This document shows positions 21,068 to 34,450 of a DNA stretch of 42,067 nucleotides, piece by piece; the stretch's first letter is position 1, and each line of letters starts with the position of its first letter. Source of the DNA: a virus; IMG/VR virus record IMGVR_UViG_3300042542_004360, positions 1-42,067 of that record. One strand, given 5' to 3'. Position numbers and translations under genes: made by a program. The notes beneath the pieces were generated by a model. That model was not told the DNA's origin and ran no database searches. It saw nothing but the letters and a program-made list of their open reading frames with translations.

Positions 21068-21612
21068 GACTGTTCCCAGTACACCGTTTCGCCTCGACGG
21101 TAGTGCTTCAGGTTCTCGCGCGCAGCGGGGTCCACGAAGTGCGCGTCCCTGAACGTCAGGTAGTTGTTGGGCAGCAGGGCGAACTGCCCCGCGTCCAGCA
21201 TGACGAGGTTCAGCGGCTTGTGCTCCTGTGGGTAGCGAGAGAAGCCGTCCGCCCAGTCCACGACGAGGCCCGTGTGGCGCCCTGTTGCTTCCATCGGAGC
21301 GCGCACGTCGCACGCGAGGCCGTGTAGGTAGCGCGAGGACCAGACCACCGTCTCCGTTCCCATCGCGCCCCACGGCATGAGCTGCTCCGCCATGAAGCGG
21401 AAGTCCTGCGTGAACGACAGCGCGTGCAGCGGGAGCCCGCTCCAGTTCGCGCCCGACTCCAGCAGTACATGGCACATCAGCACCTGGCTCTCGCGCGCGT
21501 AGACCCCGTGCCAGATGCCCGCCGTCACGCCCGCGGGCATGTCGGGGCCGAGGAAGCGGTTGTCCACGTTGACGTAGATGTGGTGCGGGAGGTTCGCGTG
21601 TGGGTGGCTCAC
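21064..21612 (-). CDS. Hypothetical 182-aa protein
   Basis: Unrecognised. GTG 21612 overlaps the upstream stop (GTGA). Mixed alpha/beta with several aromatic-rich stretches (GIWHGVYARESQVLMCHVLL, GTETVVWSSRYLHGLACD), and acidic Asp/Glu-Trp loops (VVDWADGFSRYPQEHK). The start is His-rich (MSHPHANLPHHIYVNVDNR). The composition suggests a soluble enzyme-like domain, but no catalytic motif is identified. Confidence 0.6.
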   Translation of the reverse strand: MSHPHANLPHHIYVNVDNRFLGPDMPAGVTAGIWHGVYARESQVLMCHVLLESGANWSGLPLHALSFTQDFRFMAEQLMPWGAMGTETVVWSSRYLHGLACDVRAPMEATGRHTGLVVDWADGFSRYPQEHKPLNLVMLDAGQFALLPNNYLTFRDAHFVDPAARENLKHYRRGETVYWEQS

Positions 21613-21977
21613 GGCGCCGCCTCCAAGGCCGACACCAGCGCCTCTTCTTCGGTCTGTATGCGGTGGTCCCCGCAGAGGAACGCAGCCCAGTTGCCGCCCG
21701 TCGTCACGCGGTCAACGTCGAACACATGGAATGACTTGCCGTTTGCCGACAGTCGCACCAACGCGCGCGGCGCGCTCCACGCCTCCCGCACCAGCGCAAG
21801 CACGATGCCCTTCGTGGCGGGCTCGCGGAGGTCGGGCCGGTCGATAGACGGAGTCCAGCGCCACAGCAGGGACTGCTCCCACGTCCGGCCCTGCATGTCC
21901 TTGAGGCCCGGCATCGGGCGGAAGTGACGGCATGCGGCCAGCCGCTTGCCCAGCGCGGTCGCTTCTTCTTCGGTCAT
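21609..21977 (-). CDS. Hypothetical 122-aa protein
   Basis: Unrecognised. ATG 21977 (MTEEEATALGKRLAACRHFR) has GGAG upstream and overlaps the 28-aa gene stop. The N-terminal helix is followed by KDMQGRTWEQSLLWRWTPS and a beta hairpin region (HVFDVDRVTTGGNWAAFLCG), then a helical EEEALVSALEAAP. The opening MTEEEA and a C-terminal Glu/Ala helix are shared in style with chain neighbours, but it lacks the ERGEHRREEE tail. Confidence 0.6.
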   Translation of the reverse strand: MTEEEATALGKRLAACRHFRPMPGLKDMQGRTWEQSLLWRWTPSIDRPDLREPATKGIVLALVREAWSAPRALVRLSANGKSFHVFDVDRVTTGGNWAAFLCGDHRIQTEEEALVSALEAAP

Positions 21978-22060
21978 GGCGCGCACTCCTTGACTACCGT
22001 CGCGAGAGCAAAGCACCACAGCGCCACGTAGACGCCGTACCAGAAGTCATCTTCGGTCAT
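21974..22060 (-). CDS. 28-aa membrane microprotein
   Basis: MTEDDFWYGVYVALWCFALA followed by TVVKECAP. One hydrophobic helix with an acidic N-terminus and a short basic end. The start overlaps the stop of the 95-aa gene (ATGA at 22057-22060) and its stop overlaps the start of the next gene (ATGA at 21974-21977); SD AGGAGGAG comes from the upstream gene's repeat cassette. Precise coupling at both ends is the main evidence that it is translated. Confidence 0.55.
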   Translation of the reverse strand: MTEDDFWYGVYVALWCFALATVVKECAP

Positions 22061-22092
22061 GGCTCCTCCTCGCGGCGGTGCTCGCCGCGTTC
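22057..22092 (-). repeat. ERGEHRREEE cassette copy 9
   Basis: On the mRNA strand: CGCGGCG (22089-22083), 5-nt loop, CGCCGCG (22077-22071), AGGAGGAG (22070-22063), then ATGA. It encodes IERGEHRREEEP, the Shine-Dalgarno and the start of the 28-aa gene. Confidence 0.8.
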
Positions 22093-22344
22093 GATGGCCT
22101 TCGTCGCCCAGCCAATGTCGAGGTTGTCGTCGTTCTCGATTGCCTCTTGCTGCTGCTCCCGAAGGAACCGCACCACGGAGGTGCGCTCACGCGCGACTTC
22201 GGCGCGCAGCCGTGCCACCTCGCGGAGCAGGTCGTTTCGGTCGGTCAGCGCGTACTGCAAGGTCATGCCGATGGCGTCGTTGTCGCACTCCATCTCGTAC
22301 TCCGTGTCGTCGCGCTTCTTGATGGCCTCGATGTCGATGCTCAC
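22057..22344 (-). CDS. Tail-cassette family protein, coiled coil (95 aa)
   Basis: GTG 22344 overlaps the upstream stop (GTGA). The N-terminal half is acidic (VSIDIEAIKKRDDTEYEMEC), then a coiled coil (DLLREVARLRAEVARERTSV) leading into the family motif RTSVVRFLREQQQEA and the shared end AIERGEHRREEEP. Eight other genes in the chain have the same end. The fixed part may be a small helix-turn-helix-like docking module or simply the translation of the RNA cassette. Function unknown. Confidence 0.65.
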   Translation of the reverse strand: MSIDIEAIKKRDDTEYEMECDNDAIGMTLQYALTDRNDLLREVARLRAEVARERTSVVRFLREQQQEAIENDDNLDIGWATKAIERGEHRREEEP

Positions 22345-22375
22345 TTCTCCTCCTCGCGGCGGTGCCAGCCGCTCT
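22341..22375 (-). repeat. ERGEHRREEE cassette copy 8 (variant ESGWHRREEEK)
   Basis: Stem shortened to 5 bp: GCGGC (22372-22368) with GCCGC (22360-22356), 7-nt loop; AGGAGGAG at 22354-22347 and a GTGA junction. Confidence 0.7.
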
Positions 22376-22634
22376 CTACGATGTTCGCAGCGTCCCACAA
22401 CGCTTCGGCGCGGTTGCGGTTGTGGTTTCGGTACGCATCCCTGTGAGCACAGTCACGCAGGTACGCCACGACGGCGGCGCGCTCCTGTTCGGCAGTCCAC
22501 ACGGTCGGCTTCGTCCCGTTCGTGCAAGCAAGACAGGTGTGGAAGGCTTCGCTCCGGTGCGCGCCTCGGTAGGGGTCAAGGCCGTAATCGCAGCATCGAC
22601 CGTTGCACTTGGGGCAACCTTCATTCACGGTCAT
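22341..22634 (-). CDS. Tail-cassette family protein with zinc-binding N-terminus (97 aa)
   Basis: ATG 22634 overlaps the previous stop (ATGA). Residues 7-37 hold CPKCNGRCCDYGLDPYRG ... CLAC, a zinc-ribbon-like set (CxxC, CC, CxxC). Then ERAAVVAYLRDCAHRDAYR, a variable stretch and the variant tail ESGWHRREEEK. It shows that the fixed C-terminal half is combined with different N-terminal modules in this chain. Likely a small DNA- or protein-binding adaptor; function unknown. Confidence 0.65.
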   Translation of the reverse strand: MTVNEGCPKCNGRCCDYGLDPYRGAHRSEAFHTCLACTNGTKPTVWTAEQERAAVVAYLRDCAHRDAYRNHNRNRAEALWDAANIVESGWHRREEEK

Positions 22635-22666
22635 TCTTCCTCCTCGCGGCGGTGCCAGCCGCGCTG
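22631..22666 (-). repeat. ERGEHRREEE cassette copy 7 (variant QRGWHRREEEE)
   Basis: Stem CGCGGC (22663-22658) with GCCGCG (22650-22645), 6 bp and 7-nt loop, then GAGGAAGA and an ATGA junction. Confidence 0.7.
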
Positions 22667-22873
22667 AATGTTGGTCGCGAGCAGCCGCAAGTGGTCGCCG
22701 CTACCACGCGGCCCGAACGTGTCGCCGCCCTGCGCGCACTCACTCAAGTACGCCACCGTTGCCTTGCGCTCCTCGCGGACGGCCTTCTCGATGGCCTCGG
22801 TTATCTCTGCGGCCAACTGCTCCCGTGCGCTCGCGAGGGCGAGGCGGACGGCGTCTTCTGAAATCTGGCTCAC
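22631..22873 (-). CDS. Tail-cassette family protein (80 aa)
   Basis: Starts GTG 22873 (GTGA overlap). An amphipathic helical N-terminal half (VSQISEDAVRLALASAREQL) runs into AIEKAVREERKATVAYLSEC, a Gly-rich loop (GGDTFGPRGSGDH) and the tail NIQRGWHRREEEE. Longer in-frame starts would read back into the neighbouring Cys-rich gene without a ribosome binding site. Function unknown. Confidence 0.6.
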   Translation of the reverse strand: MSQISEDAVRLALASAREQLAAEITEAIEKAVREERKATVAYLSECAQGGDTFGPRGSGDHLRLLATNIQRGWHRREEEE

Positions 22874-23118
22874 GTTTCCTCCCGCGCGGCAGCGAGGGCA
22901 GCGAGGGCAGCGACTTCGGCAGCAGATGGCCCACCGTAGGTTTCGCATCCACCATCGCACGGTGCCCACTTGCACACGGCGCATAGTTCTGCCGAATGGT
23001 AGCAACGCTCGGTCGTGTCGTGTTCAGCGTCTACGGGGCCACCGCACGCTTCGCACTCGTACGACGGTGTCTTTTTGTACCCGTTAGGGTCGCAGCACAC
23101 GTTCTGTTCCTCGGTCAT
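22870..23118 (-). CDS. Cys-rich zinc-binding protein (82 aa)
   Basis: ATG 23118 overlaps the stop of the PolA-fragment gene. Ten cysteines: VCCDPNG, YECEACGGPVDAEHD, ERCYHSAELCAVCKWAPCDGGC. At least two zinc-ribbon-like sites are possible. The C-terminus is an Ala/Glu helix (AAEVAALAALAAAREET). It lacks the shared tail although both neighbours in the chain have it. Function unknown. Confidence 0.65.
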   Translation of the reverse strand: MTEEQNVCCDPNGYKKTPSYECEACGGPVDAEHDTTERCYHSAELCAVCKWAPCDGGCETYGGPSAAEVAALAALAAAREET

Positions 23119-23150
23119 GGCTCCTCCTCGCGGCGATGCTCGCCGCGTTT
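23115..23150 (-). repeat. ERGEHRREEE cassette copy 6
   Basis: CGCGGCG (23147-23141) and CGCCGCG (23135-23129), 7 bp with a 5-nt loop, then GAGGAGGAG and an ATGA junction. It ends the 57-aa PolA-fragment gene. Confidence 0.8.
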
Positions 23151-23288
23151 GGTGTTTGTCACGCGCGACTGGAAGAACAGTTCCCGAATCCTACGGCCCT
23201 CTTCGGTTCGGATGGGGAGGTTTTGCAAGTTCGGGTTGGACACGTTCGCGCTCATGCGTCCCGACGGGGTTTCGCTGGGTTTGGTCAC
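23115..23288 (-). CDS. 57-aa protein carrying a DNA polymerase I motif fused to the tail cassette
   Basis: GTG 23288 overlaps the upstream stop (GTGA). The protein reads MTKPSETPSGRMSANVSN, then PNLQNLPIRTEEGRRIRELF, then FQSRVTNTKRGEHRREEEP. Residues 9-39 match the template-binding segment of bacterial-type DNA polymerase I (T-G-R-L-S-S...P-N-L-Q-N-I-P-I-R-T-E-E-G-R-R-I-R-E-A-F). No other polymerase motif is present. The phage polymerase at 27701-30532 has a different sequence here (GRLSSSGPNLQNIGSRKGQ), so the piece comes from another lineage. It may be a relic captured between cassettes or a DNA-binding microprotein. Confidence 0.65.
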   Translation of the reverse strand: MTKPSETPSGRMSANVSNPNLQNLPIRTEEGRRIRELFFQSRVTNTKRGEHRREEEP

Positions 23289-23320
23289 TTCTCCTCCTCG
23301 CGGCGGTGATCGCCGCGTTC
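23285..23320 (-). repeat. ERGEHRREEE cassette copy 5
   Basis: CGCGGCG (23317-23311) and CGCCGCG (23305-23299), loop ATCAC on the mRNA strand, then GAGGAGGAG and a GTGA junction. Encodes IERGDHRREEEK. Confidence 0.8.
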
Positions 23321-23578
23321 AATACGTTCAGCCAAGCTGAGGATGTCTGTCTCGCTGGGGCCGAACGGTCCCGGGTCGAACGTCTTCAACATCCTTACCG
23401 CAGCGGTTCTATCCTCGACCAGTTCTTCGGTCAAGCCGATGACGGTCGAACGCAGGCGCTCCACCTCTGCCACCAAGTTCTTCACGTCCCCGAGGGCCGC
23501 GTAGAAGGCAGGGTCGTCGCCCTTGAAGTCCATGTACGCGTTTCGGATGCGCGCCTTGATGGCGATGAGGTCAATCAC
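23285..23578 (-). CDS. Tail-cassette family protein, coiled coil (97 aa)
   Basis: GTG 23578 overlaps the upstream stop (GTGA). N-terminus MIDLIAIKARIRNAYMDFKG, similar in style to the 105-aa family member at 24478 (MIDLNVLKRQIEEA). A coiled coil (KNLVAEVERLRSTVIGLTEE) follows, then the family motif EDRTAAVRMLKTF, a variable stretch and AERIERGDHRREEEK. Function unknown. Confidence 0.65.
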   Translation of the reverse strand: MIDLIAIKARIRNAYMDFKGDDPAFYAALGDVKNLVAEVERLRSTVIGLTEELVEDRTAAVRMLKTFDPGPFGPSETDILSLAERIERGDHRREEEK

Positions 23579-23610
23579 GCGCCCTCCTCGCTGCGGTGCT
23601 CGCCGCGTTC
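23575..23610 (-). repeat. ERGEHRREEE cassette copy 4 (imperfect stem)
   Basis: CGCGGCG (23607-23601) faces CGCAGCG (23595-23589), one mismatch in the 7-bp stem. GAGGAGGG and a GTGA junction follow. Encodes IERGEHRSEEGA. Confidence 0.7.
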
Positions 23611-23847
23611 GATACTACCGGCATATGCTTCGGCGGTGTAGTAGCCGCGTTCGAGCAGCCACACGACCACGGCGTCACGCTCGTCAGCGACGCTTCTCCG
23701 CGCGGCCTCCATGATCGCCTCGACGACGGACATGGCTTCGTCGTCTGGAACGCACGTCACGACGAGGTAGCCGTTCCACTTCACGGACGAACGCTCGGCG
23801 CAGCCCGCGCCACACGCGTACGTCTGACGCCGCGGGACTTCGATCAT
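23575..23847 (-). CDS. Tail-cassette family protein with Cys pair (90 aa)
   Basis: ATG 23847 overlaps the upstream stop. N-terminus MIEVPRRQTYACGAGCAERS is basic with a CxxxC pair, then beta-like KWNGYLVVTCVPDDE and a helix (MSVVEAIMEAARRSVAD). The family motif ERDAVVVWLLERGYYTAEAY and the tail SIERGEHRSEEGA follow. Another example of a variable N-terminus on a fixed C-terminal half. Function unknown. Confidence 0.65.
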   Translation of the reverse strand: MIEVPRRQTYACGAGCAERSSVKWNGYLVVTCVPDDEAMSVVEAIMEAARRSVADERDAVVVWLLERGYYTAEAYAGSIERGEHRSEEGA

Positions 23848-23879
23848 GGCTTCTCCTCGCGGCGGTGCTCGCCGCGCTC
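23844..23879 (-). repeat. ERGEHRREEE cassette copy 3
   Basis: CGCGGCG (23876-23870) and CGCCGCG (23864-23858), 7 bp with a 5-nt loop, then GAGGAGAAG and an ATGA junction. Encodes FERGEHRREEKP. Confidence 0.8.
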
Positions 23880-24095
23880 AAACTTGTCAGCGATCTCATC
23901 GAGGCAGACGAGCGACAGACCACCGTGCTCCAGCCATGCTCCGCTTCCATGTTCACGCAGCCACGCCACCACGGCGGCGCGTTCTTCGGCAACAGCGCGC
24001 GCTATGTCGGCGTCGTGCGCCTTCCGCATGTCAGCGATCTCCGCTGAGACTTCGGCAAGCAGCTTCCCGATGCTCTCGGCTTCGGCGTCGTTCAT
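23844..24095 (-). CDS. Tail-cassette family protein (83 aa)
   Basis: ATG 24095 (MNDAEAESIGKLLAEVSAEI) overlaps the upstream stop and has GGAGG before it; the longer open frame has no start signal. Helical N-terminal half (ADMRKAHDADIARAVAE), the family motif EERAAVVAWLREHGSG, a variable loop with HGGLSLVCLDEIADK and FERGEHRREEKP. Function unknown. Confidence 0.65.
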   Translation of the reverse strand: MNDAEAESIGKLLAEVSAEIADMRKAHDADIARAVAEERAAVVAWLREHGSGAWLEHGGLSLVCLDEIADKFERGEHRREEKP

Positions 24096-24481
24096 GGCTC
24101 CTCCAACGGTTCGAGGTTCGGCTCGTGTCGCTCCCCGCACAGGTGACATTCGGGGCCGTCCGGTGACCATCGGTAGCGGTGGTCGTAGCGCGACCGCTTG
24201 GGCGTAGGCGGCGGTGGCAGCGTCCAAGCGGCGTACCTGTCCCGCATGCGCTGCGAGTGCGCTCCCCGTTCGGGAATGACCTCTACTTCTTCATCCGGCT
24301 CGACCTTCATGGTGTTGTGCGTGTCCAAGCCAAACCACAGGTATTTGCCGTCGTCGCTCCACCGAATGTGGCAGATGGTGTTCGCGAACGGCTCGCCGTC
24401 CTCGATGGAGCACCACACGGCGTAGTGGTAGGGCTTCACGTCACGGGCGCGCAGCTTGAGGAATGTCGGTTCGAGGGTCAC
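24092..24481 (-). CDS. Hypothetical 129-aa protein
   Basis: Unrecognised. GTG 24481 overlaps the upstream stop (GTGA). The N-terminal two thirds is beta-rich (HYAVWCSIEDGEPFANTICH, SDDGKYLWFGLDTHNTMKV), and the C-terminus carries CHLCGERHEPNLEPLEEP with one CxxC pair. The IRWSDDGKYLWFGLD stretch resembles a beta-propeller-like strand pair but is too short to be one. No shared tail. Function unknown. Confidence 0.6.
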   Translation of the reverse strand: MTLEPTFLKLRARDVKPYHYAVWCSIEDGEPFANTICHIRWSDDGKYLWFGLDTHNTMKVEPDEEVEVIPERGAHSQRMRDRYAAWTLPPPPTPKRSRYDHRYRWSPDGPECHLCGERHEPNLEPLEEP

Positions 24482-24510
24482 GGCTGCTCCTTGCGGTGCT
24501 CGCCGCGTTC
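24478..24510 (-). repeat. ERGEHRREEE cassette copy 2 (stem degraded)
   Basis: Encodes IERGEHRKEQP. CGCGGCG is kept but the partner is CGCAAGG, so only about 3 bp remain. SD is AAGGAGCA, GTGA junction. Peptide kept better than the hairpin here. Confidence 0.65.
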
Positions 24511-24795
24511 GATGCGTTCGGGCAACTCATCGAACTCGACTTCTGGTGTCGCTCGCATGAACGCCACCACAGCGGCGCGCTCCGCGACCAACTTCTGCAT
24601 CAGACGAGCCACCGTCGCGCGCGACTGCGCCAGTTCGGTGTCGAGGCTCGTGTTGATGTTGTCGCGGACCTTCGCTTCTGCCCGAAGCAGCTCGATCTCT
24701 TGGATGAGCGCGCGGGCCTGCGCTACGGTGAGTACGCCGTCGCGCCACGGGATCGCCTCTTCGATCTGTCGCTTCAACACGTTTAGGTCGATCAT
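24478..24795 (-). CDS. Tail-cassette family protein, coiled coil (105 aa)
   Basis: ATG 24795 overlaps the DUF3310 stop (ATGA). MIDLNVLKRQIEEAIPWRDG then a long coiled coil (LIQEIELLRAEAKVRDNINT, LAQSRATVARLMQKLV), the family motif ERAAVVAFMRATPEVEFDEL and ERIERGEHRKEQP. The coiled coil suggests a dimer. Function unknown. Confidence 0.65.
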   Translation of the reverse strand: MIDLNVLKRQIEEAIPWRDGVLTVAQARALIQEIELLRAEAKVRDNINTSLDTELAQSRATVARLMQKLVAERAAVVAFMRATPEVEFDELPERIERGEHRKEQP

Positions 24796-25136
24796 GCCTG
24801 CCTCCGGTCCAGCTCGCGCTGCAAGTACCAGAGCGCCTTCTTGAGGTCCTCGACCGCGTTGCCCTTGTGGTCGCAACGAGCGAGGTACTTCAGGCAGTTA
24901 CCCAGGTTGAAGCCCAAGTTCCAGTCCTCGATAACCGTGATGGCTTCGATTTTTCCGACGTTGTAGTGCGCCGGATGGTTGACCGTGTTAGGTTCGGGAC
25001 GAGCCGGGACTGCGGTAGAGAGTGTCGCGTGCATCTCGCGCCAGCCCTTGTGCCAGCGGCACGTCTTGTAGTCGTTGTGGCACGGCGGGCCTGCACCGTA
25101 CTGCGTGGCCGCGTTGCAGCGTTCGTAGCTCTTCAT
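24792..25136 (-). CDS. DUF3310 protein (114 aa)
   Basis: ATG 25136, ATGA overlap. The C-terminal 65 residues match DUF3310, a small domain found across phages and sometimes called SaV-like: VNHPAHYNVGKIEAITVIED, then LGFNLGNCLKYLARCDHKGN and DLKKALWYLQRELDRRQ. The N-terminal 45 residues (ERCNAATQYGAGPPCHNDYK, CRWHKGW) add cysteines and are not part of the usual domain. Function of the domain is unproven; a role in nucleotide metabolism has been suggested from gene context. Confidence 0.75.
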   Translation of the reverse strand: MKSYERCNAATQYGAGPPCHNDYKTCRWHKGWREMHATLSTAVPARPEPNTVNHPAHYNVGKIEAITVIEDWNLGFNLGNCLKYLARCDHKGNAVEDLKKALWYLQRELDRRQA

Positions 25137-25558
25137 GCTTCCTCCAGGAGCAGGACAGCGGCATCGATCCACGAGTCCTGCATGGTGTCTGCCACGTCGT
25201 GGATGCGGCGCAGCGTCTGGTTGTTGATGTCCCACGCGTAGGCGTACTTGCCTCGCGTGATGAACCCCTCGATGAGCGCCTGCGTTGCCCGCCCGACGGT
25301 CGGTCGATCCATGTCGCAGGGCACCACGATCCCATGGAACAGCGCGCTGCCGGACCAGTCTTCCGCGACGGGGACGTCCTTGACCCAGGTGTTCCAGCCG
25401 CCCATCGCGCGGCTGCGGGACAGGTAGTCGTCGCGGCCAGGCGTGACCTCCGCCTCGACGTCCGCGCCCGTGAGCTGCGCGCGAAGGGCCTCGGCCCACG
25501 CGTCGATGATGTCGTCGGGGGTCTGCTTGGCGTGCGCCAGAAACCAGCGGCACTTCAC
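25133..25558 (-). CDS. Hypothetical alpha/beta protein (141 aa)
   Basis: GTG 25558 (VKCRWFLAHAKQTPDD), GTGA overlap. It contains a GRDDYLSRSRAMGGWNTW segment, LFHGIVVPCDMDRPTVGRAT, then ALIEGFITRGKYAYAWD. The last stretch resembles the ligand-binding end of nucleoside 2-deoxyribosyltransferase-like folds (a helix opening with Gly, then G-K-x-V/A-x-x-W), but no catalytic Glu can be fixed, so I leave it as hypothetical. Confidence 0.55.
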   Translation of the reverse strand: MKCRWFLAHAKQTPDDIIDAWAEALRAQLTGADVEAEVTPGRDDYLSRSRAMGGWNTWVKDVPVAEDWSGSALFHGIVVPCDMDRPTVGRATQALIEGFITRGKYAYAWDINNQTLRRIHDVADTMQDSWIDAAVLLLEEA

Positions 25559-25863
25559 GACGGCACTTCCCTTGAGCGTCCCGTAAACGACGGCACGGCC
25601 TCGACGCTCACGGTTACTTCCCACTTTCGCCCGTCGGAGTGCGTGACGAGCACGACCATCTCGTCGGGGTATTCGTAGTCCGACCACCGCTCTTCGGCCC
25701 ACATGCGCGCCGCGTCCTCCTCATCCATCGCCCATCGGTCGCTCCCGACGTACTTGGCGCAGACGGTGAAGGGCGTGGGTGGAAAGGCGTCGTCGGCGTA
25801 CTCGGCGTCGATGACCTCGTAGTAGGGCGGACCACCCTCCGGCACCGGGGCTGCGCGACTCAT
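25555..25863 (-). CDS. Hypothetical acidic protein (102 aa)
   Basis: Unrecognised. ATG 25863 (MSRAAPVPEGGPPYYEVIDA) overlaps the upstream stop. Acidic and aromatic (EYADDAFPPTPFTVCAKYVG, ARMWAEERWSDYEYPDEM), with a beta hairpin VVLVTHSDGRKWEVTVSVE near the end. The Trp/Tyr/Asp-rich middle could mimic DNA, as many anti-restriction proteins do, but this is speculation from composition. Confidence 0.55.
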   Translation of the reverse strand: MSRAAPVPEGGPPYYEVIDAEYADDAFPPTPFTVCAKYVGSDRWAMDEEDAARMWAEERWSDYEYPDEMVVLVTHSDGRKWEVTVSVEAVPSFTGRSREVPS

Positions 25864-26222
25864 CGTTCCTCCTTCGTGTCGCTGAGGTCGTAAGAGGCGA
25901 CCCACCACTGCGCGTCCTCTGGGGCCACCATGTCGGTGCGGTCGTCGTTCACCACCACGCAGTCGCCTTGAAACTGTGGTACGAGACAGCGCCGGTAGCC
26001 GTAGGCGTTCGTCGGCCCGCACTTCAGGTCTGCGTCTGGAATCGTGATGTCCTTGGAAGGACTCACAGATGCGTCCCACGCAGGGTCATCCCAGCCACGC
26101 AGCCCATTGGCGGCCAGATCGTGCGCCAACTCTTCAATCTCAGCGTCTCCCATGTCCGGAGGAGCGTACAAAGTGACGGTCATCGACTTCTCAAACGTCA
26201 CGAACATGCGCTTCATCTTCAT
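25860..26222 (-). CDS. Hypothetical 120-aa protein
   Basis: Unrecognised. ATG 26222 (MKMKRMFVTFEKSMTVTLYA) overlaps the upstream stop. The start is beta-rich, then an acidic helix (DMGDAEIEELAHDLAANG), a Trp-containing region (RGWDDPAWDASVSPSKD), GPTNAYGYRRCLVPQFQGDC with two cysteines, and an acidic end. No enzymatic motif identified. Confidence 0.55.
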   Translation of the reverse strand: MKMKRMFVTFEKSMTVTLYAPPDMGDAEIEELAHDLAANGLRGWDDPAWDASVSPSKDITIPDADLKCGPTNAYGYRRCLVPQFQGDCVVVNDDRTDMVAPEDAQWWVASYDLSDTKEER

Positions 26223-26449
26223 TGTGTGTCTTCCTTCGCGCGCCACATGACGGCCACCTTGCGGCGCGGCAGCTTCTTCTCTTGGTAGATGATCTTGCCG
26301 TCGTTCATGAGGTCGAGCAGCAGGGAGCGCACCAGGCGTGCGCTGTGCTTCATCTCGACCGCCACCTCTTCGGTGGTCGACCACGGCTCGTCCTGAATGA
26401 TGGCGAGGGCCTGCGCCTTCTTGGCGATGCGCGGGTCAACGACGGTCAT
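26219..26449 (-). CDS. Small winged-helix protein (76 aa)
   Basis: ATG 26449 (MTVVDPRIAKKAQALAIIQD), overlapping the upstream gene by 14 nt. EEPWSTTEEVAVEMKHSARL followed by VRSLLLDLMNDGKIIYQEK has the helix, turn, recognition helix and wing pattern of a winged-helix domain, then a basic strand (LPRRKVAVMWRAK). It is likely a DNA-binding regulator or adaptor. Its position early in the chain would fit control of the block, which is inference. Confidence 0.55.
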   Translation of the reverse strand: MTVVDPRIAKKAQALAIIQDEPWSTTEEVAVEMKHSARLVRSLLLDLMNDGKIIYQEKKLPRRKVAVMWRAKEDTQ

Positions 26450-26606
26450 GCGCTGCTCCTGCCAGACGCAGCCGCTTCCGCAGCTCGCGCACCAGCGCCT
26501 CGAAGTCATCTGTCTCCACGGTCACGGTGCGCTTGCGGACGAGCGCGTCGGTGCGGTTCCGCGCCTTGACGCGGTCCTCCAGCGACTCAAGCTGTTCGAT
26601 GGTCAT
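26436..26606 (-). CDS. Hypothetical basic protein (56 aa)
   Basis: ATG 26606 (MTIEQLESLEDRVKARNRTD) follows the cassette SD AGGAGCG and overlaps the 82-aa gene stop. Highly charged and helical, ending in a basic helix (LVRELRKRLRLAGAAHDRR). Small, basic and probably a nucleic-acid or partner-binding peptide. Function unknown. Confidence 0.55.
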   Translation of the reverse strand: MTIEQLESLEDRVKARNRTDALVRKRTVTVETDDFEALVRELRKRLRLAGAAHDRR

Positions 26607-26638
26607 CGCTCCTCCTCGCGACGGTGGTCGCCGCGTTC
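26603..26638 (-). repeat. ERGEHRREEE cassette copy 1 (first in mRNA)
   Basis: CGCGGCG (26635-26629) pairs with CGTCGCG (26623-26617) through one G-U pair, so the stem is kept despite the base change. GAGGAGGAG and an ATGA junction follow. Encodes IERGDHRREEER. Confidence 0.75.
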
Positions 26639-26851
26639 GATGGCGTCTGCGTGTCCACCCGATCCAGCAGGCCATCCCGGTTGACGCTCCCGCAGGTACG
26701 CCACCACGGCGGCGCGCTCCGTCTTGACCTCATGCTTCAGCTCTGTGATGATCATGTCGCGAAACGTCACTTGTTGCGTCAGGCGAGCCACTTGTGCGCC
26801 AAGGTCGGCGATCAGCCGCGCTTCAACACTAAGCGTTTCTTCTCCCGTCAT
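26603..26851 (-). CDS. Tail-cassette family protein, coiled coil (82 aa)
   Basis: ATG 26851 (MTGEETLSVEARLIADLGAQ) overlaps the stop of the 27-aa gene. The coiled coil VARLTQQVTFRDMIITELKH leads to the family motif ERAAVVAYLRERQPGW, a Gly-rich loop and AIERGDHRREEER. It is the first family member in the transcript and may show the ancestral form, because motif and hairpin are both well kept. Function unknown. Confidence 0.65.
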   Translation of the reverse strand: MTGEETLSVEARLIADLGAQVARLTQQVTFRDMIITELKHEVKTERAAVVAYLRERQPGWPAGSGGHADAIERGDHRREEER

Positions 26852-26931
26852 GGCCAGCTCCCGATCTTGCGGGCGACGGCGGCGAGGAGGTCGAGCATCC
26901 AATGCCCGATGTCGATGATGTCTGCTTTCAT
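26848..26931 (-). CDS. 27-aa microprotein heading the chain
   Basis: MKADIIDIGHWMLDLLAAVA followed by RKIGSWP. Amphipathic to hydrophobic helix, possibly membrane-associated. ATG 26931 has GGAGAAGAC upstream and the stop overlaps the next ATG (ATGA). It is the first gene behind the promoter at 26954-26982, with a leader of about 16 nt, so it could act as a leader peptide setting ribosome entry for the chain. Confidence 0.5.
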   Translation of the reverse strand: MKADIIDIGHWMLDLLAAVARKIGSWP

Positions 26932-26953
26932 GTCTTCTCCAGAAGGCGCAGTC

Positions 26954-26982
26954 AGAGTAACTGCACCTTACCGGAGCGTCAA
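26954..26982 (-). promoter_or_regulatory. Promoter of the 22-gene chain
   Basis: Minus strand: TTGACG (26982-26977), 17-nt spacer, TACTCT (26959-26954). The TGA inside the -35 is the stop codon of the adenine methylase gene. The first 17 nt (26982-26966) recur exactly at 31125-31109. Confidence 0.6.
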
Positions 26983-27701
26983 CAAAGATTCAGCCACAGC
27001 GCCTCGCGGCTAACTTTGCCGCCGGACCGTCCTTCGTTCCCCTTGATGTCAACGAAAGGGATGAACGGAAGCCACGTCGCGCCGACATTCTCGCAGACCA
27101 TCACCTGGCCGCGACGCGCGCGGCACCATTCTGCGAGCGCGGTGAAGTCGTCGGGCTGCGTCGGGTAGTGCTTCCCGGCGCCGATGTAAGGTGGGTCGAT
27201 GAACCACGTCGCCTCAACGTCGGGCGCATCCGTGTAGTCGCCCTCGATGAGCTTCCAGTGACGGACGCGGTCTACCTGCGACGCGATGCGCTCGCGGATC
27301 TCAGGCCCCCACCAACTACTCGGAGGATCGCGCGGCTCAAGTCCGGCGACGGCTCGTCGCATATTCTGGCTTGCGCGCACGCGTGGGGCTGCCGTTCCTT
27401 TGTTAATCCACCACCCGACGAGAAGGCGTGCCTCCTCTACGATAGCAAGATCATCTACCGACTGGTCGAGTCTGAGGTCGGGCAGCGCCCGCACTTCTGC
27501 CGCCGACACGCGTAGCAGGTAGCGCCACGTCGCAGCGACTTTCGGGTTCTTCTCCACGAGTACGACGTTCCGGTCAGGGTAGCGAAGCGAGTAGCCTGCC
27601 GCGCCCGCGAACGGTTCAATGATCGTGCCGAACAAGGGCTTAGGATAGAGCGGCGCGGCCCGCCACTTGCCGCCGTAGTACGCCCAGAACGGCTTGAGCA
27701 T
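26979..27701 (-). CDS. DNA adenine methylase, Dam/D12 class
   Basis: About 240 residues. FWAYYGGKWRAAPLYPKPLF ends in the usual entry to IIEPFAGAAGYS (SAM-binding motif I, residues ~28-40), and WFIDPPYIGAGKHYP holds the catalytic DPPY near residue 168. This is the order of class alpha D12 N6-adenine methylases (GATC-like targets, though the site is not predictable). ATG 27701 gives a TGATG junction with the polymerase; GTG 27704 is the alternative. The end KGNEGRSGGKVSREALWLN is also typical. Probably protects phage DNA from restriction. Confidence 0.8.
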   Translation of the reverse strand: MLKPFWAYYGGKWRAAPLYPKPLFGTIIEPFAGAAGYSLRYPDRNVVLVEKNPKVAATWRYLLRVSAAEVRALPDLRLDQSVDDLAIVEEARLLVGWWINKGTAAPRVRASQNMRRAVAGLEPRDPPSSWWGPEIRERIASQVDRVRHWKLIEGDYTDAPDVEATWFIDPPYIGAGKHYPTQPDDFTALAEWCRARRGQVMVCENVGATWLPFIPFVDIKGNEGRSGGKVSREALWLNLC

Positions 27702-30532
27702 CACGCCTCCTTGAGATTTCTACCGACGCTCGCCTCAGCGGTCAGCGGCACGTCCCACCCAGGGATGCGGACGGTCATGCACTCCTCGACCTCGCGGCGG
27801 TACGCTTCCAGCTCGGGCGGCAGCGCCTCGCCCTTCTTGGGCTTCCAGTCGGCCAGCCCAGGCGGCGCCTCGATCTCCACGGCGATGGAGTCGTGGCACT
27901 GGTGGATGAGGCCCGTCCGCTTGTGGAAGTCCCACGGGAACCGTTGCAGCAGCGCCTGCTCCGCGAGGCGCATGCAGCTTGCTTCAGCAGCGAGGATGGG
28001 GAAGTTCACGACCTCCTGCTTCTTGCCTTCCGTGAGGCCGCCGGAGCGCCGTCCCATGACCGGCTCTTCCATGTAGTTCTGGTGCCGGTAGATGGACTGC
28101 ATCGCGTCCCACGCCGACAGCCACTCCGGCTCCGTCTTCAGCCACGTCTCGTGGAAGTGGCGCACTTCCTTCGTCGTCATGCCGAGGTACGGCAGCTCGC
28201 CGCTGTCGGACTCCGTTGACGTGAGCACCTGCCAGATGGTCGTCGGGTCGGCGGCATACGCAGCCGCGTACCGGAACGTCTTCGAGATGTCTCGCATGGC
28301 CTTCGCCATGCCACTACCGGGCTTGCGCTGGATGCTGAACCCGTCCGGGCCCCACCCATCTGCTGCCTTGAACTTATCACCAAACAGCGCCAGCGCCAAG
28401 GCGTTGTGCGGATCTTTTCCTTCGACAAAGCCCTCGATCAACGTCGGGATCTTCCAGTAGTTCGCGATGATTCGGAGGTGCGCCTGGTCGAGGTCAGCCC
28501 CCACGAGGAGATGCCCACGCTCCGCTGCGAACAGGGTCTTGAGCTTGCCCTGCCCCTTGCGGCTGCCGATGTTCTGAAGGTTCGGCCCCGACGAGGACAG
28601 CCGCCCCGGTGCCGTGACGTGGGCGTTCCACGTCGAGCGGACGCGCCCGTCCGAGTGCCAGATGACGCCCTTCTGCGGGTCCATCGACGTGAGGTTCAGC
28701 GGCAGGAGCACGGTGCCGAGGATCTTGTTCTTCTCGCGCCGGTACAGGCGCAGTTCGCGGATGAACGCCTCCTGCTCCTGCGAGAGGCGGCCGCCCGCCA
28801 GATGGCCGCGGAGCACCTTGTCGCCGGTGCCGGGCATCCCCGACGCCGTGTAGAAGTCGCGCGCCTCCATGCTCGGCGGGATGCCGAGCTTCCACGTCTC
28901 GTAGAGCAGGTCGCGGATCTGGTCAGCGCTGCCTGGCTTGATGCCGATGGTGTCGTCCGCCTCGTCGTTCGCTCCCGCGCTCTTGAGGTCCAGCCGCGCG
29001 AGGCCCACGGCGTGGGCGAGTTCGGACAGCCGCTTCTCGCGCTTTGCCACCGACGCGCGCGTCTCTATCTCCATCTTGAACCGCGCTTCCTGGTCGACGT
29101 ACACGCCGATCTTGTGCAGGTTGACGCACATGTCCTGCGTCGCGTGGTCCAGCTCATGCAGGTCCCAGCGCCGGTGCTCCCAGCCCTTCGGCCGCAGCGC
29201 CTCGGGGAGGTCACGGAAGGCGCCTGCCTCCTCGGCTGCGTCGAACAGCGGCACCACGATGCGCGCGTTCACGGCGCTGTCGGTGCAGTTGTAGGCGAGG
29301 CGGTCCCAGTCGTCGACCTTGCCGTGCGCGAGGCTCTCGCCCTTCTCCGTCGTCTCCCAGCGGTCCACGTCGGTGAGCACCGAGCCGACGACCTTGAGGC
29401 CCTTCGGAAGTTCAGGCGCCCGGAAGCGGGCCGCGAACAGCGTGTCGATGATCGGTGCGGGTGTGATACCCAGCCAATGCTCTGTTACCACCCTGTCATA
29501 GGATCCACAATTGTGCCCCACCTTGGTCTTCGTCGGGTCGCCGAGGAAGCGTCGGAGGATGTCGAGAACTCGCGCCTCGTCCTCGGCCGAGTAGTAGCGC
29601 GTGGAGCCGTCTCCGCTCAGCAGGTTGAGCCCCAAGACCTTGCAGCGCGTGGCCTCCTCCTGCCCTTGGCGTAGCGCGCGGCCCTCCGCGTTGAGGTCGG
29701 GATGCGCGATGGCGATGGACCGCACTTGACAGGTCAACGGCTCGATGCCGTCCGTCTCCAAGTCGTAGGCCCAGAACGGCATGTCCTGCGCGAGGAACGC
29801 TTCCAGCTCATCGGGCGTCGGGTTGAAGACGCGCTCCGGCTCTGTCCATCGAAGCTGCCCGGTGAACCAGCGCAGCGCCTTGGACAGGTCCGCGTGGAAG
29901 GTGGCGCGCCAGCCTGGAGCCTTCTGCACGAAGCCCGGGTGGAACATCGGAAAGACCTTCCGCACCGCGCCCTCGGGCGTGACGTTCGCGAGCGGCGTCT
30001 CCATGAGCGCGCCCCAATGCTCGTCCACCCAGACAGGTCCACCGCGCAGCGAGAAGATGCTCTGCGCCTTGCTCGTCAGCGCGTTGGCCGACGTGCGCCC
30101 CAGCGCGATGATGTTGTTGTAACTTTCCGCCTCCTTGAGTAGCCTCGGGCGGCAACAAGCGATAGGGTCCGGGAGGGCCGGGAGTCCTTGCACAAGGAGG
30201 CGACGGTTCTCCTTGTCGAGCGCCTTGGTCATCTTCTCCCACGCGTTCGGCTGCGTGCCCGCGTTGCAGGCGACGACATGCGTGAGGTCGATGTCACCAC
30301 GCTTGCGCCCGATGGCGAGCATGGCCAGGTTCCACTCCTGCCCGCTGCGGCCCGAGAGCGGGCGTCCGTTGTTGGAGTCCTCGATGTGCGGCGTCTCCGC
30401 CACCGCGAGCACCGTGGCGTCCTTGTGGATCTCAGGCGGGCACGGCTGCCAGTAGCCGTCGCGAAACTTCCCCTTGGGGCCCAACGGGCACACATCGCAG
30501 CGCGCCCCGTGCTGCCGCGGGTCATACGGCAT
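27701..30532 (-). CDS. UDG-like domain fused to DNA polymerase I (family A)
   Basis: 943 residues. N-terminus (1-225) resembles family-4 uracil-DNA glycosylases: CDVCPLG cysteines, AVAETPHIEDSNNGRPLSGR, ACCRPRL and MFHPGFVQKA. Then a 3'-5' exonuclease (YDLETDG near 255, GHNCGSYDRV, YNCTDS) and a polymerase domain (GRLSSSGPNLQNIG near 639, motif A ADLDQAHLR near 677, motif B RDISKTFRYAAAYA near 745, motif C CHDS near 877). Position 762 (E. coli numbering) is Tyr. Two usual acidic residues differ: Glu710 is His and Glu883 is Ser. SPO1-type phages are known to carry a similar UDG-polymerase fusion. Confidence 0.85.
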   Translation of the reverse strand: MPYDPRQHGARCDVCPLGPKGKFRDGYWQPCPPEIHKDATVLAVAETPHIEDSNNGRPLSGRSGQEWNLAMLAIGRKRGDIDLTHVVACNAGTQPNAWEKMTKALDKENRRLLVQGLPALPDPIACCRPRLLKEAESYNNIIALGRTSANALTSKAQSIFSLRGGPVWVDEHWGALMETPLANVTPEGAVRKVFPMFHPGFVQKAPGWRATFHADLSKALRWFTGQLRWTEPERVFNPTPDELEAFLAQDMPFWAYDLETDGIEPLTCQVRSIAIAHPDLNAEGRALRQGQEEATRCKVLGLNLLSGDGSTRYYSAEDEARVLDILRRFLGDPTKTKVGHNCGSYDRVVTEHWLGITPAPIIDTLFAARFRAPELPKGLKVVGSVLTDVDRWETTEKGESLAHGKVDDWDRLAYNCTDSAVNARIVVPLFDAAEEAGAFRDLPEALRPKGWEHRRWDLHELDHATQDMCVNLHKIGVYVDQEARFKMEIETRASVAKREKRLSELAHAVGLARLDLKSAGANDEADDTIGIKPGSADQIRDLLYETWKLGIPPSMEARDFYTASGMPGTGDKVLRGHLAGGRLSQEQEAFIRELRLYRREKNKILGTVLLPLNLTSMDPQKGVIWHSDGRVRSTWNAHVTAPGRLSSSGPNLQNIGSRKGQGKLKTLFAAERGHLLVGADLDQAHLRIIANYWKIPTLIEGFVEGKDPHNALALALFGDKFKAADGWGPDGFSIQRKPGSGMAKAMRDISKTFRYAAAYAADPTTIWQVLTSTESDSGELPYLGMTTKEVRHFHETWLKTEPEWLSAWDAMQSIYRHQNYMEEPVMGRRSGGLTEGKKQEVVNFPILAAEASCMRLAEQALLQRFPWDFHKRTGLIHQCHDSIAVEIEAPPGLADWKPKKGEALPPELEAYRREVEECMTVRIPGWDVPLTAEASVGRNLKEA

Positions 30533-31681: not shown

Positions 31682-32302
31682 TCAGCGGGCGACGTTCACG
31701 GCCGGGGGCGGCGGGAGGCGGAGGCCGCCGGCGGGAGCCGGAGCGACCGTCTGCACCACCGGCCCAGAAGCAGCGGACGGAGCGGCGGGGATGACGCTCT
31801 GAACCGCCGGGGGTGCGGAGCGGGGCGCACCACCGTTGCTCTGAGAAGCAGAAGGCACGACGCCCGAAGCCTTCGCCTTCTCGTACTGGTCCTTGGACAG
31901 GAACTTGTTGATGGCGGCGTAGGAGCCCTGCACGCCCTGCTGGCCTGGCACGAACTCCACGTACGCCTTGCGGCCGCCGTTCGTCGCGGAGACGAACCAC
32001 GCGTCGCTGATCTCGCCGCCCTCGATGTCCTCGTCAGAGAACCCGAAGCTGGAGAGGATGGTCTTGATGGCGGCCAGACGACCGCGAATCTGCTTCTCGG
32101 GCACCCCCTCGGCGGGGAGGTTCAGCCAGGTGAACATCTTGAACCCGTTCGGGAACTCGACGCTGAAGCGACGGCTATCGGTCTTGTCGCCCTGCTTGTA
32201 CTCGACGGAGACGCCGAACACCTCGTAGTAGCCAGCCTCGGGCTGAGAGGAGCCGAGCGTGGAGACGCCCTTGAAAGAAGAACCGTTGATCATGAAGGAC
32301 AT
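31682..32302 (-). CDS. Probable phage ssDNA-binding-like protein (206 aa)
   Basis: N-terminal 130 residues mixed beta/alpha (EVFGVSVEYKQGDKTDSRRF, MFTWLNLPAEGVPEKQIRG, DAWFVSATNGGRKAYVEFV), then a Pro/Ala/Ser-rich disordered tail (ending LPPPPAVNVAR). Position just before the strong terminator and next to a Sak4-like ATPase gene, a compact N-terminal domain and a long flexible tail would fit a single-stranded DNA-binding protein. No acidic SSB tip is present and I do not recognise the fold, so the role is inferred. Confidence 0.45.
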   Translation of the reverse strand: MSFMINGSSFKGVSTLGSSQPEAGYYEVFGVSVEYKQGDKTDSRRFSVEFPNGFKMFTWLNLPAEGVPEKQIRGRLAAIKTILSSFGFSDEDIEGGEISDAWFVSATNGGRKAYVEFVPGQQGVQGSYAAINKFLSKDQYEKAKASGVVPSASQSNGGAPRSAPPAVQSVIPAAPSAASGPVVQTVAPAPAGGLRLPPPPAVNVAR

Positions 32303-32344
32303 GGTGAACTCCGTTTTGTGGTCGTTGATGCTTTGGTTGTTGGA

Positions 32345-33340
32345 CTACGGGGCGCCCGGAGGAGGGGGAGGCAGAGGCACGCCGCCGCTCTTCTTCGGGT
32401 CATCCTTCGGCGCGAGGTCGAAGAGGTTCCTCGCCTTGCGCTTCTGGAACGTAGCGCGGGCGATACCATCTTGGCAAGCCCAGCGCAGATGGATTTGTTG
32501 GTAACCGGCCTTGAACAGCGGGTGCTCCTCCGAGATCTCCTTGATAGAACCTTGCACATCGCCCGATTCCATGATACGATCTGCAAGAGAGTCAGCGAGT
32601 TCGTCCTGCCACTCAAGCCCCGGAACGCGGCTGAGCTGGTAGCCGCCCGCGCTCGCCCGGAGAATCTCGCGCAGGTTGCCCGGCGTCTTCGCCCAGCACA
32701 CACCGGTGCGGTCGCCCGTCACCCAGTCCGGCGACGTCGGGTCGCAAAAGTAGGTGCCCGGGAACCACGGGTCGGGGTAGGTCGAGTCGACCATCGCGCG
32801 GACGTTGATGTCGCACCAGCTCGGGAGCGTCTCGACCTGGTTGCGCGAGGGCACGTTCGGGCCGCCTGGGCAGAAGAAGCCCTCGGCGTTCGTGCCGGGC
32901 ATGCGCTCGTGGAACGTGAACGCGAGATGGACGCCCATGTGGCGGGCGAGGCCCGACAGCATGAGCAGATGCTTGTTGAGCTGCTGGTAGGCGTAGAACT
33001 TGTCCTTCTTGCCGCTCTTGCCAGCAGGCGCCTCCTCGTTCCAGACCATCATGCTGCGGTCGCAGATGTGGCTGGCGTCGTCGATGATGACCGCGCCGTA
33101 CTGGCGCGCGAGTCCGGTCTTGTGCGCGTACTCCAAGAGCGCGATCAGATCAGGCAGCGTCTGCGGCGGCTCCGGATGAACAGCGGGCGTGAACCCCAGC
33201 TCGTTCTGCGCGACGAGCGTGATGGCGCTCGGCACGCCGAGGCACAGCGCAGTCGGGAAGGCGGCGAGCACGTCGCTCGTCTTCTTCTTCTTCGGCTTTC
33301 CGTAGACCGTCACCATGACGGTCGGGTTGTCGGTGGTCAT
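32345..33340 (-). CDS. Sak4/RecA-like ATPase with altered P-loop
   Basis: 331 residues from ATG 33340 (GGAG 6 nt upstream). The layout fits AAA_24/Sak4 recombination ATPases: a strand then P-loop VTVYGKPKKKKTSDVLAAFP (residues 10-29), a conserved LGVPSAITLVAQNELG, Walker B-like YGAVIIDDASHICDRS, and a long central FYAYQQLNKHLLMLSGLARH. The P-loop lacks the usual second glycine: GKPKKKKTS instead of GxxxxGKTS. The end is Pro-rich (GVPLPPPPPGAP). Probably acts with the nuclease at 33401 and the helicase at 35117 in recombination or replication repair. Confidence 0.65.
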   Translation of the reverse strand: MTTDNPTVMVTVYGKPKKKKTSDVLAAFPTALCLGVPSAITLVAQNELGFTPAVHPEPPQTLPDLIALLEYAHKTGLARQYGAVIIDDASHICDRSMMVWNEEAPAGKSGKKDKFYAYQQLNKHLLMLSGLARHMGVHLAFTFHERMPGTNAEGFFCPGGPNVPSRNQVETLPSWCDINVRAMVDSTYPDPWFPGTYFCDPTSPDWVTGDRTGVCWAKTPGNLREILRASAGGYQLSRVPGLEWQDELADSLADRIMESGDVQGSIKEISEEHPLFKAGYQQIHLRWACQDGIARATFQKRKARNLFDLAPKDDPKKSGGVPLPPPPPGAP

Positions 33341-33400
33341 GTGGCACTCCGGCCCGGTGGTCGAGCCTCGTCGTAGGGCCAAAGACGACGAGGCGCACTC

Positions 33401-34384
33401 TCAGCCGCGAGGGCCGAGAGAGCAGAGGTCGAGCCCGGCACAGGCTCCGTAGCGTCCATAGCATGAGAGTTCGTTCTGCGCCTTCGGCCATTCCCACGGG
33501 TCGGTGGTGAGGTCGAGGTTGGCGATCTGATGCTCCGCCCACCAAAGCCAGCGCGCGAAGTGGGCGTCCCGGTGCGGTGTCTGCGGCACATGCTCACGGA
33601 CCACGCGCCCGATCTGGGTCGTGCTGATGAGGTTCAGCGCGAGGCCGCCGAACGCGGAGCCGTAGAGCTGCTTGCCCATGATGCGGAACGCCGCGAAGCC
33701 ACCGTCGATGGCGTAGGCCGCCGCGCTGCTCTTCGCGTTGACCGATGCTTGGTGCTTGTGGTCCCAGATGTAGTAGCGCCCGGAACCGTCGCGGGTTACG
33801 AGGTCTATGCGGCGCGTGAGCGTTATCGGACGTCCATGCTCTCGGTGGTCGGGCATGCACAACGGCGTCACCTCGATGTCGGCACCGTCGAGACTGCGCC
33901 ACGCGCCGCCCACCTCTTCGCAGACCCATAGCCCCCACTCCCCGCGCAGCGTGCCCAGCACGGCGGTGACGGGAGCCTCGACCGCGATGACGTCGCCTGG
34001 AGGCTCGGGGTACTTCGCCATGTAGGCGTGGAACACCGTCAGCATCGTCGGCAGTAGCTGATGACTGCCGTACTTGTCGCACCACGCCTGCGCGGCCTCC
34101 TCCGGCTCCATGAACACGGACGGGTCGTAGTACATCGTCTCGTCGACCATGACACCCTGCGGCTGTGCGGCGCCCCAGATGGCGTGCAGGTGCGCTTGGA
34201 GCGTGTGGCCGATGGAGCCCTTGGCGAGCGCCTCGATGGGCGGGGCGATGTTGGGAGAGCGCCCCAGCTCGTCGACCATCCGAGAGGAACGGTTCAGATA
34301 GGCGAAGAGCTGGGGGCACTTCGCGAAGTTGCCGATGCGGCTCCAGCCGCGGCCGGACTTGCCGGCGTCGATGAGCATCTTCAC
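33401..34384 (-). CDS. Cas4/RecB-like PD-(D/E)XK nuclease with Fe-S cysteines
   Basis: 327 residues from GTG 34384. C23 (NFAKCPQLFAYLNRSSR) plus C308, C315 and C321 near the end (ELSCYGRYGACAGLDLCSL) match the split four-cysteine site of Cas4/AddB-type iron-sulfur nucleases. The core has ITLTRRIDLVTRDGSGRYYI and WDHKHQAS, the Asp and DxK of the PD-(D/E)XK site. Phage homologues resect DNA ends together with a Sak4- or RecA-like partner, as here. Translation is preceded by the 11-codon mini-ORF whose Glu codons supply GAGGAGGAG. Confidence 0.75.
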   Translation of the reverse strand: MKMLIDAGKSGRGWSRIGNFAKCPQLFAYLNRSSRMVDELGRSPNIAPPIEALAKGSIGHTLQAHLHAIWGAAQPQGVMVDETMYYDPSVFMEPEEAAQAWCDKYGSHQLLPTMLTVFHAYMAKYPEPPGDVIAVEAPVTAVLGTLRGEWGLWVCEEVGGAWRSLDGADIEVTPLCMPDHREHGRPITLTRRIDLVTRDGSGRYYIWDHKHQASVNAKSSAAAYAIDGGFAAFRIMGKQLYGSAFGGLALNLISTTQIGRVVREHVPQTPHRDAHFARWLWWAEHQIANLDLTTDPWEWPKAQNELSCYGRYGACAGLDLCSLGPRG

Positions 34385-34386
34385 GG

Positions 34387-34422: not shown

Positions 34423-34434
34423 GGTTTCCTTCTA

Positions 34435-34446: not shown

Positions 34447-34450
34447 CGTG

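Follow-up and report, generated by a model that had tools for sequence, protein, structure and literature searches.

How a phage gains genes without breaking the operons that receive them is an old question, and linker sequences at the borders of phage modules were proposed long ago. The question arises again for IMG/VR virus record IMGVR_UViG_3300042542_004360, a whole virus record of 42,067 bp (the window). From reading the sequence, nine minus-strand genes of the window terminate in GEHRREE-like tails, and the TGA stop of each sits within an ATGA or GTGA that is the start of the next gene. Together with a second shared segment upstream in the same genes, the tail probably serves as a coding linker, over which homologous exchange swaps genes and gene parts while the reading frame, the Shine-Dalgarno (SD) sequence and the start codon are kept. 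We put the probability of this reading at about two in three.

The shared gene end and its nine copies

The proteins are built, in order, from a differing N-terminus, anchor 1 (ERAAVVAWLR), a middle that varies in length and sequence, and anchor 2, a short helix that ends in IERGEH and leads into a disordered tail of the RREE type. Three elements coincide in the anchor 2 DNA of this phage group, namely the protein end, the SD in frame (GAGGAGG) and the overlap of stop and start (ATGA/GTGA). An AlphaFold model of the 83-aa copy 7 protein (83 aligned rows) has a helix at residues 3-49 that holds anchor 1, a short helix at 54-57 and another at 65-74, and is unstructured from residue 75 on; its mean predicted local distance difference test (pLDDT) score is 87.4, and that of the last block is 60.

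A preliminary description of the window had listed nine ERGEHRREEE-like gene ends, next starts overlapping the stops, an ERAAVVAYLRE-like segment upstream in seven or more of the genes, and differing N-termini, one of them a piece of PolA. All of these were confirmed. The tail stops lie at 22057, 22341, 22631, 23115, 23285, 23575, 23844, 24478 and 26603 on the minus strand, and the upstream segment is present in eight of nine copies, the exception being copy 4 (23115-23288), which has the tail alone. The description also spoke of a single minus-strand chain; the strand is correct, but the copies are not nine in a row, since at least two genes between them (22870-23118 and 24092-24481) are without a tail and copy 9 stands ~2 kb apart. 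The profile search with the module that it had proposed was productive: with a profile (A3) built from 38 modules, nine sites were detected across the record; E ranges from 4e-19 to 6e-12 for eight of them and is 0.016 for the tail of copy 4. Nine is the highest count seen, as 49 of 50 other searched records have 1 to 6 matches and one has none. The copies are as follows, each tail ending with its stop codon and E values being those of the A3 profile.

22057 to 22089, minus strand: copy 1 tail, RGEHRREEEP, with 7-bp stem, in-frame SD and ATGA joint
22060 to 22188, minus strand: copy 1 module (anchor 1, middle, anchor 2), E 4.3e-17
22341 to 22373, minus strand: copy 2 tail, SGWHRREEEK, GTGA joint
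22344 to 22484, minus strand: copy 2 module, E 4.3e-16
22631 to 22663, minus strand: copy 3 tail, RGWHRREEEE, ATGA joint
22637 to 22771, minus strand: copy 3 module, E 1.7e-16
23115 to 23288, minus strand: copy 4 gene, 57 aa, PolA fragment with tail RGEHRREEEP, without anchor 1
23285 to 23317, minus strand: copy 5 tail, RGDHRREEEK, GTGA joint
23288 to 23413, minus strand: copy 5 module, E 1.3e-14
23575 to 23607, minus strand: copy 6 tail, RGEHRSEEGA, one stem mismatch, GTGA joint
23581 to 23682, minus strand: copy 6 module, E 5.5e-12
23844 to 23876, minus strand: copy 7 tail, RGEHRREEKP, ATGA joint
23847 to 23984, minus strand: copy 7 module, within the protein that was folded, E 4.0e-19
24478 to 24507, minus strand: copy 8 tail, RGEHRKEQP, stem mostly lost, AAGGAG retained, GTGA joint
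24481 to 24582, minus strand: copy 8 module, E 3.2e-12
26603 to 26635, minus strand: copy 9 tail, RGDHRREEER, one G-U pair in the stem, ATGA joint
26609 to 26719, minus strand: copy 9 module, E 7.1e-16

The N-terminal and middle segments of the nine genes are mostly dissimilar to each other, which makes simple local duplication of whole genes an unlikely source of the copies; the middles of copies 2, 5 and 6 moreover have near relatives elsewhere. In copy 2 the N-terminus has a Cys-rich stretch that we read as zinc-ribbon-like. Some members (24766-24792 and 23552-23578 of the window, and others in the related loci L015 and L061) start with MIDLxAIKAR-like residues and have coiled-coil stretches with AEVERLR, features that may represent a third joint, close to the gene starts, that members have in common. 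A DUF3310 protein (PF11753, E 3.1e-18) is encoded just upstream of the cluster, at 24792-25136.

Where homology between relatives ends

In IMG/VR, a back-translated pattern for the tail gave 61 stretches and one for ERAAVVAWLR alone gave 56. Some 100 genes carry the module; they are spread over 55 records, almost all from uncultured viruses, and 101 distinct tail contexts were collected from 57 loci (55 records by contig name; L numbers denote loci). Stop and start overlap in 100 of the 101 contexts (ATGA 74, GTGA 25, TTGA 1), the remaining joint being GTAG, and 92 of 100 joints have an SD-like run. Near-exact copies of the tail DNA, with up to 4 mismatches, are in-frame tails overlapping a start in 114 of 120 cases. 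The same middle recurs in different settings: there are 17 middle clusters with at least two members, and each of them is found with two or more next-gene clusters, 14 also with two or more N-terminal clusters.

In 57 stretches of contig totalling 736 kb, homology to other contigs was scored as stopping or continuing at a site, with a tolerance of 45 nt. For matches of ≥200 nt at ≥90% identity, it stops at anchor 2 in 24 cases and continues in 9 (13 contig pairs), and at anchor 1 it stops in 14 and continues in 3. The corresponding counts are 48 and 74 for other SD-bearing ATGA/GTGA joints within 4 kb, and 4 and 38 for gene midpoints. At both anchors homology ends more often than at other gene joints or within genes. 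Bootstrapping by contig gives differences of 0.21-0.44 for anchor 2 against other joints and 0.55-0.94 for anchor 1 against midpoints. The set omits L009, L019, L025, L026 and L067 (duplicates by eye), L014 (no member), loci superseded by a longer stretch from their own contig, and loci from the later anchor 1 scan; it retains the sister pair L187/L196, and the copy 1 joint of the window, whose next gene has <35 codons, falls outside it.

Individual cases place the borders at the same sites. In the sister phages L187 and L196, whose aligned pieces are 96-98% identical, identity runs into anchor 1 of one gene, gives way to 633 and 768 nt, respectively, that are unlike, and returns from anchor 2 of the third gene. 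Could metagenome assemblers have misjoined reads at short repeats? With ~25-33 nt, the anchors repeat almost exactly, and almost every contig comes from a metagenome assembly, but the L187 arrangement recurs in three separate metagenome sets and the L196 arrangement in two, with no mismatch across the joints, and frames, SDs and overlaps are intact; assembly chimeras are barely credible as the explanation. The copy 5 gene is near-identical in the window, L015 and L032 and is followed there by three different genes, the switch falling at the stop/start. The window also differs from its close relative L061, with which its aligned pieces are mostly 88-99% identical, in two tail-bearing blocks, among other places.

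21981 to 24784, minus strand: block with copies 1-8; its place in L061 is taken by an unlike block of 0.83 kb that has three tails
26607 to 26848, minus strand: block made up of the copy 9 gene; absent from L061, where the flanks are joined at GTGA

The tail is found on proteins without the domain as well, namely the PolA fragment of the window, a DNA methyltransferase in L016, a protein in L194 that is called UBA-like on our own reading and not from a search result, alanine-rich proteins in L023 and L212, and others. Five tailed families have tail-less relatives: the methyltransferase in the window (70% identity) and in L201 (38%), the UBA-like protein in L201 (61% over 38 residues), the L032 protein in L042 (69%), the L064 protein in L192 (73%) and the alanine-rich protein in L056 (70%). 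No clear tail-less relative was found for the remaining tailed proteins tested, and many further rows of this search look spurious (low-complexity or wrong-frame matches). The PolA match of copy 4 (PF00476, E 2.5e-8) has 33.7 bits, just below the Pfam cut-off of 34.3.

26979 to 27704, minus strand: DNA methyltransferase (phrog_56), tail-less, with a tailed relative in L016

The PolA fragment comes from a family A DNA polymerase and, over the part that can be compared, does not resemble the polymerase that the phage itself encodes (27701-30532). That polymerase matches 523 phage records, the 20 listed being at ~22-25% identity.

The preliminary description had proposed a mobile-like coupling cassette. 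A portable joint is supported by the breakpoints, the block swap, the tail on unrelated proteins and the presence or absence of a gene at a start codon. The word mobile is too strong: in the scanned part of the phage, neither a recombinase specific to the element nor a target-site mark was found, and the pattern is consistent with exchange guided by homology. A dedicated cassette, in which gene and tail would be moved by their own site-specific enzyme acting on a palindromic end somewhat as in integron cassettes, is very improbable. It would account for the palindromic end and for the gene that is present or absent exactly at its start codon between close relatives, and one window protein has a short SbcC-like match (phrog_77). 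However, no dedicated recombinase for the tail end was found among the ten window proteins scanned against PHROGs, which are part of the genes, joints occur at the intragenic anchor 1 too, and copies with a broken stem also act as breakpoints.

Several points weigh against exchange over a coding linker. The contigs are related, so that the breakpoint tests (site-level Fisher p values: 0.018 when anchor 2 is compared with other joints, 5e-8 when anchor 1 is compared with midpoints) are not independent, and the four thresholds used were our own choice. At the laxest cut-off the stop fractions are 0.92 for anchor 2, 0.68 for anchor 1, 0.57 for other joints and 0.26 for midpoints, the anchor counts at lax cut-offs being inflated by paralogue matches. 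Other ATGA joints break often too (0.39-0.57), and anchor 2 is therefore enriched in breaks but not unique. A second difference between L187 and L196, a block at 5413-6036 in L187, lies away from the anchors. Also absent from L061 are ~77 bases of the interior of a gene and the untailed genes at 25558-26231, so that regional gain and loss is not confined to the anchors. The Sak4 assignment discussed below comes from one weak profile match, and the fixed codons of the anchors could reflect selection on the DNA instead of exchange.

Codons, protein and hairpin

Codon and hairpin tables were made from 92 of the 101 tail contexts, nine being omitted for a longer tail or no recognised anchor 1; the expression that defines them misses window copies 3 and 4. 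The search pattern fixes the core G and H, so that their invariance in these tables is meaningless. For the codon comparison, three of the 92 tails with a doubtful anchor 1 (from L006, L031 and L051) were removed. Where residues agree between genes with unrelated middles (3,783 pairs), the codons agree at 0.73 in anchor 1 and 0.79 in anchor 2, against 0.36 and 0.50 expected. For 56 pairs with homologous middles, agreement in the middles is 0.73 and in their anchors 0.83 (anchor 1) and 0.78 (anchor 2). Codon agreement this far above expectation between genes with unrelated middles indicates that the anchors are shared as DNA, and not as peptide alone, whether by exchange or by selection.

The main question then is whether the protein alone could explain the pattern, as a conserved domain ending in IERGEH, with EE as the SD read in frame and ordinary mosaics that break near gene ends. 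The x-G-x-H core is indeed kept in 50 of 52 genes selected by anchor 1 alone (two have R or C instead of G), including 14 without SD or without overlap. It is a feature of the protein, to which SD and overlap are added in most members: overlap and SD in 38 of the 52, overlap only in 7 and no overlap in 7. The preliminary description would have counted conservation of the peptide without a downstream start against its own proposal, and the 7 of 52 genes with no start overlapping the stop go some way in that direction. EE endings are found in 47 of 472 untailed SD-bearing joints and in 2 of 1040 joints without SD, and untailed joints break too. Nevertheless we consider this explanation unlikely: it leaves out the anchor codons, far more alike than codon usage predicts even with unrelated middles, the tail on proteins without the domain, and the clustering of intragenic breaks at anchor 1 (14/17, against 4/42 at gene midpoints).

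The preliminary description had also suggested that the duplicated unit was a protein module, an RNA element or both. The shared protein module stands, and the stems are as it had described them: 7 bp in most window copies, ~5 bp at 22341 and 6 bp at 22631, with one G-U pair at 26603, one mismatch at 23575 and most of the stem lost at 24478. What found no support was a selected hairpin, placed before the SD as a translation-coupling element to regulate the next start, or the compensatory base changes expected of it. The full seven pairs are formed in 55 of 92 tails, and mean pairing is 6.10 of 7, with 4.73 expected from background codon usage. Changes in the pair cells, however, comprise 80 broken on one side, 17 G-U, 3 broken on both sides and 1 compensatory, and synonymous shuffling within columns reaches the mean pairing in 413 of 500 shuffles; full stems number 55, compared with 52.6 in synonymous-codon shuffles (60/500). 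The covariation test is weak in power, because few silent compensatory changes are possible within the reading frame, yet nothing points to the stem. Anchor 1, which has no stem, is equally enriched in particular codons (log2 0.87-1.37 for its first R, A, V and L codons and 0.30 for the last R, against 0.89-1.05 for the stem codons), and GAA directly before the stem is used at 68% against a background of 22%, though it is unpaired in this register. Of the seven anchor 1 relatives that lack the overlap, two form all 7 pairs and the other five form 2-5. The stem leaves the SD uncovered, and Rfam gave no match in 21500-27500. Full-stem tails are more often breakpoints (at ≥85% identity 29/30, 0.97, against 8/14, 0.57, for tails of under five pairs), but they are also nearest to the anchor consensus, and the two are confounded. 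A selected RNA hairpin was rejected on the missing covariation and the equally fixed codons of anchor 1; as an explanation of the locus it is quite improbable, and the hairpin appears to be a by-product of the codons CGC GGC ... CGC CGC.

The SD is better kept than the stem, even in copy 8, where the peptide has changed. In its sequence the joint has the layout of translational coupling, a stop/start overlap with an intragenic SD, and coupling itself is predicted.

In Pfam, PHROGs and NCBIfam, no family matched more than 1 of the 38 modules at E ≤ 0.1. Among 50,697 phage records, neither megablast with window positions 1-25000 nor tblastn with one module protein gave a match to a cultured relative; two shorter module queries had one match each (E 10 and 6), taken as chance. 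A pattern scan of bacterial genomes gave 114 stretches, of which only L086 and L097 have anchor 1 and a gene-end tail. The L097 contig, from a metagenome-assembled genome (MAG) labelled proteobacterium, has an integrase near the cluster and a Pfam match in 1 of 9 open reading frames taken elsewhere on the contig, and is possibly a prophage or a mis-binned phage contig. L201 belongs to a 92.7-kb contig from a MAG with the label proteobacterium and has a cluster of five copies; the integrase (phrog_1, E 4.5e-34) encoded close to the cluster, at 2428-3786 of L201, is a possible prophage and host lead. At ~11245 on the minus strand of L201, a tail copy reads through in frame past the expected next ATG, like two fused genes.

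Candidate recombination genes, known systems and meaning

Two window genes may be relevant to the proposed exchange.

32345 to 33340, minus strand: Sak4-like single-strand annealing protein, candidate recombinase (phrog_124, E 2e-7; Pfam AAA_24 below cut-off)
33401 to 34420, minus strand: exonuclease-like protein, weak match with uncertain start (phrog_1218, E 1.5e-4; no Pfam match)

With an unassigned 206-aa protein, which might be a single-stranded DNA-binding protein (a guess), they lie within 31682-34552 in what is likely a recombination module. Phage recombinases can join diverged DNA, as described for lambda Red (PMC2327257) and Sak4 (PMC5928155). In those systems, as in the reading proposed here, mosaicism arises from recombination between homologies that are short or diverged; the present case differs in that the homology is concentrated in two short in-frame anchors and in that the role of the enzyme is inferred. 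Under the coding-linker reading, the nine genes would be drawn from a pool of small phage genes with a common C-terminal module. Annealing-type homologous recombination over anchors of ~25-35 bp, perhaps through the Sak4-like protein, would swap segments. Because the joint holds tail, SD and start, recombination products would stay in frame and coupled, and an incoming downstream gene would remain translated. As for the small proteins themselves, a role as variable modules that share a docking end would be compatible with this. More tentatively, and with somewhat less than an even chance, the system may resemble exon shuffling: through two anchors, one intragenic and one at the protein end, SD and start, an annealase-type recombinase would draw on a common pool to build operons and chimeric proteins, and the anchor DNA would spread onto unrelated genes, each of which would then be a ready acceptor, in frame and coupled.

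Repeated elements at gene borders are known from other phages. Promoter early stem-loops (PeSLs) of T4-type phages are short repeated intergenic elements, dense in a shuffled region and associated with gene shuffling between related phages (PMC4503421). Like them, the window element marks the borders of segments shuffled between related phages, as judged from the breakpoints and exact cases; unlike them it is translated, lies in gene ends and inside genes, yields chimeric proteins, and bears an SD and a start where PeSLs bear a promoter and a terminator. Start-associated sequences and their extended form (SAS/ESAS) of cluster K mycobacteriophages occur in many copies per genome, tied to the starts of different gene families, and some SAS are preceded by inverted repeats (PMC3203893). 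The window element is likewise repeated and linked to translation starts, whereas SAS is a fixed 13-bp GGGATAGGAGCCC before starts, for which the parts of PMC3203893 used here describe no coding role. In 21900-27000, no promoter-like site was found at the tails with the sigma-70 consensus (1 found in the scan, 0.6 expected), and terminator-like sites number 3 against 4.1 expected, one of them overlapping the copy 4 stem on the plus strand. SAS is not enriched in the window (1 match with 2 mismatches, 0.98 expected). With promoter and terminator signals at chance and SAS not enriched, the window element is neither a PeSL nor a SAS. Translational coupling by termination-reinitiation at ATGA overlaps is known (PMC6728339) and shares with the window joint the stop/start overlap and the SD inside the upstream gene; the window joint differs in being a repeated, exchangeable sequence common to unrelated gene pairs. 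A narrow literature search found no publication on phage domain shuffling with conserved joints, and an equally narrow one on boundaries and linkers yielded a single paper about phage mosaicism among the ten listed of 27.

For the old question of how phages gain genes without operon breakage, a joint can here be followed base by base. It is translated, it supplies the ribosome site of whichever gene comes next, and one record has as many as nine copies; alternative states of it are preserved in sister phages. The linker idea is directly testable in this system by silent recoding of the anchors. When phages share a gene end, the cause may be that DNA was exchanged, without the proteins having a common ancestor.

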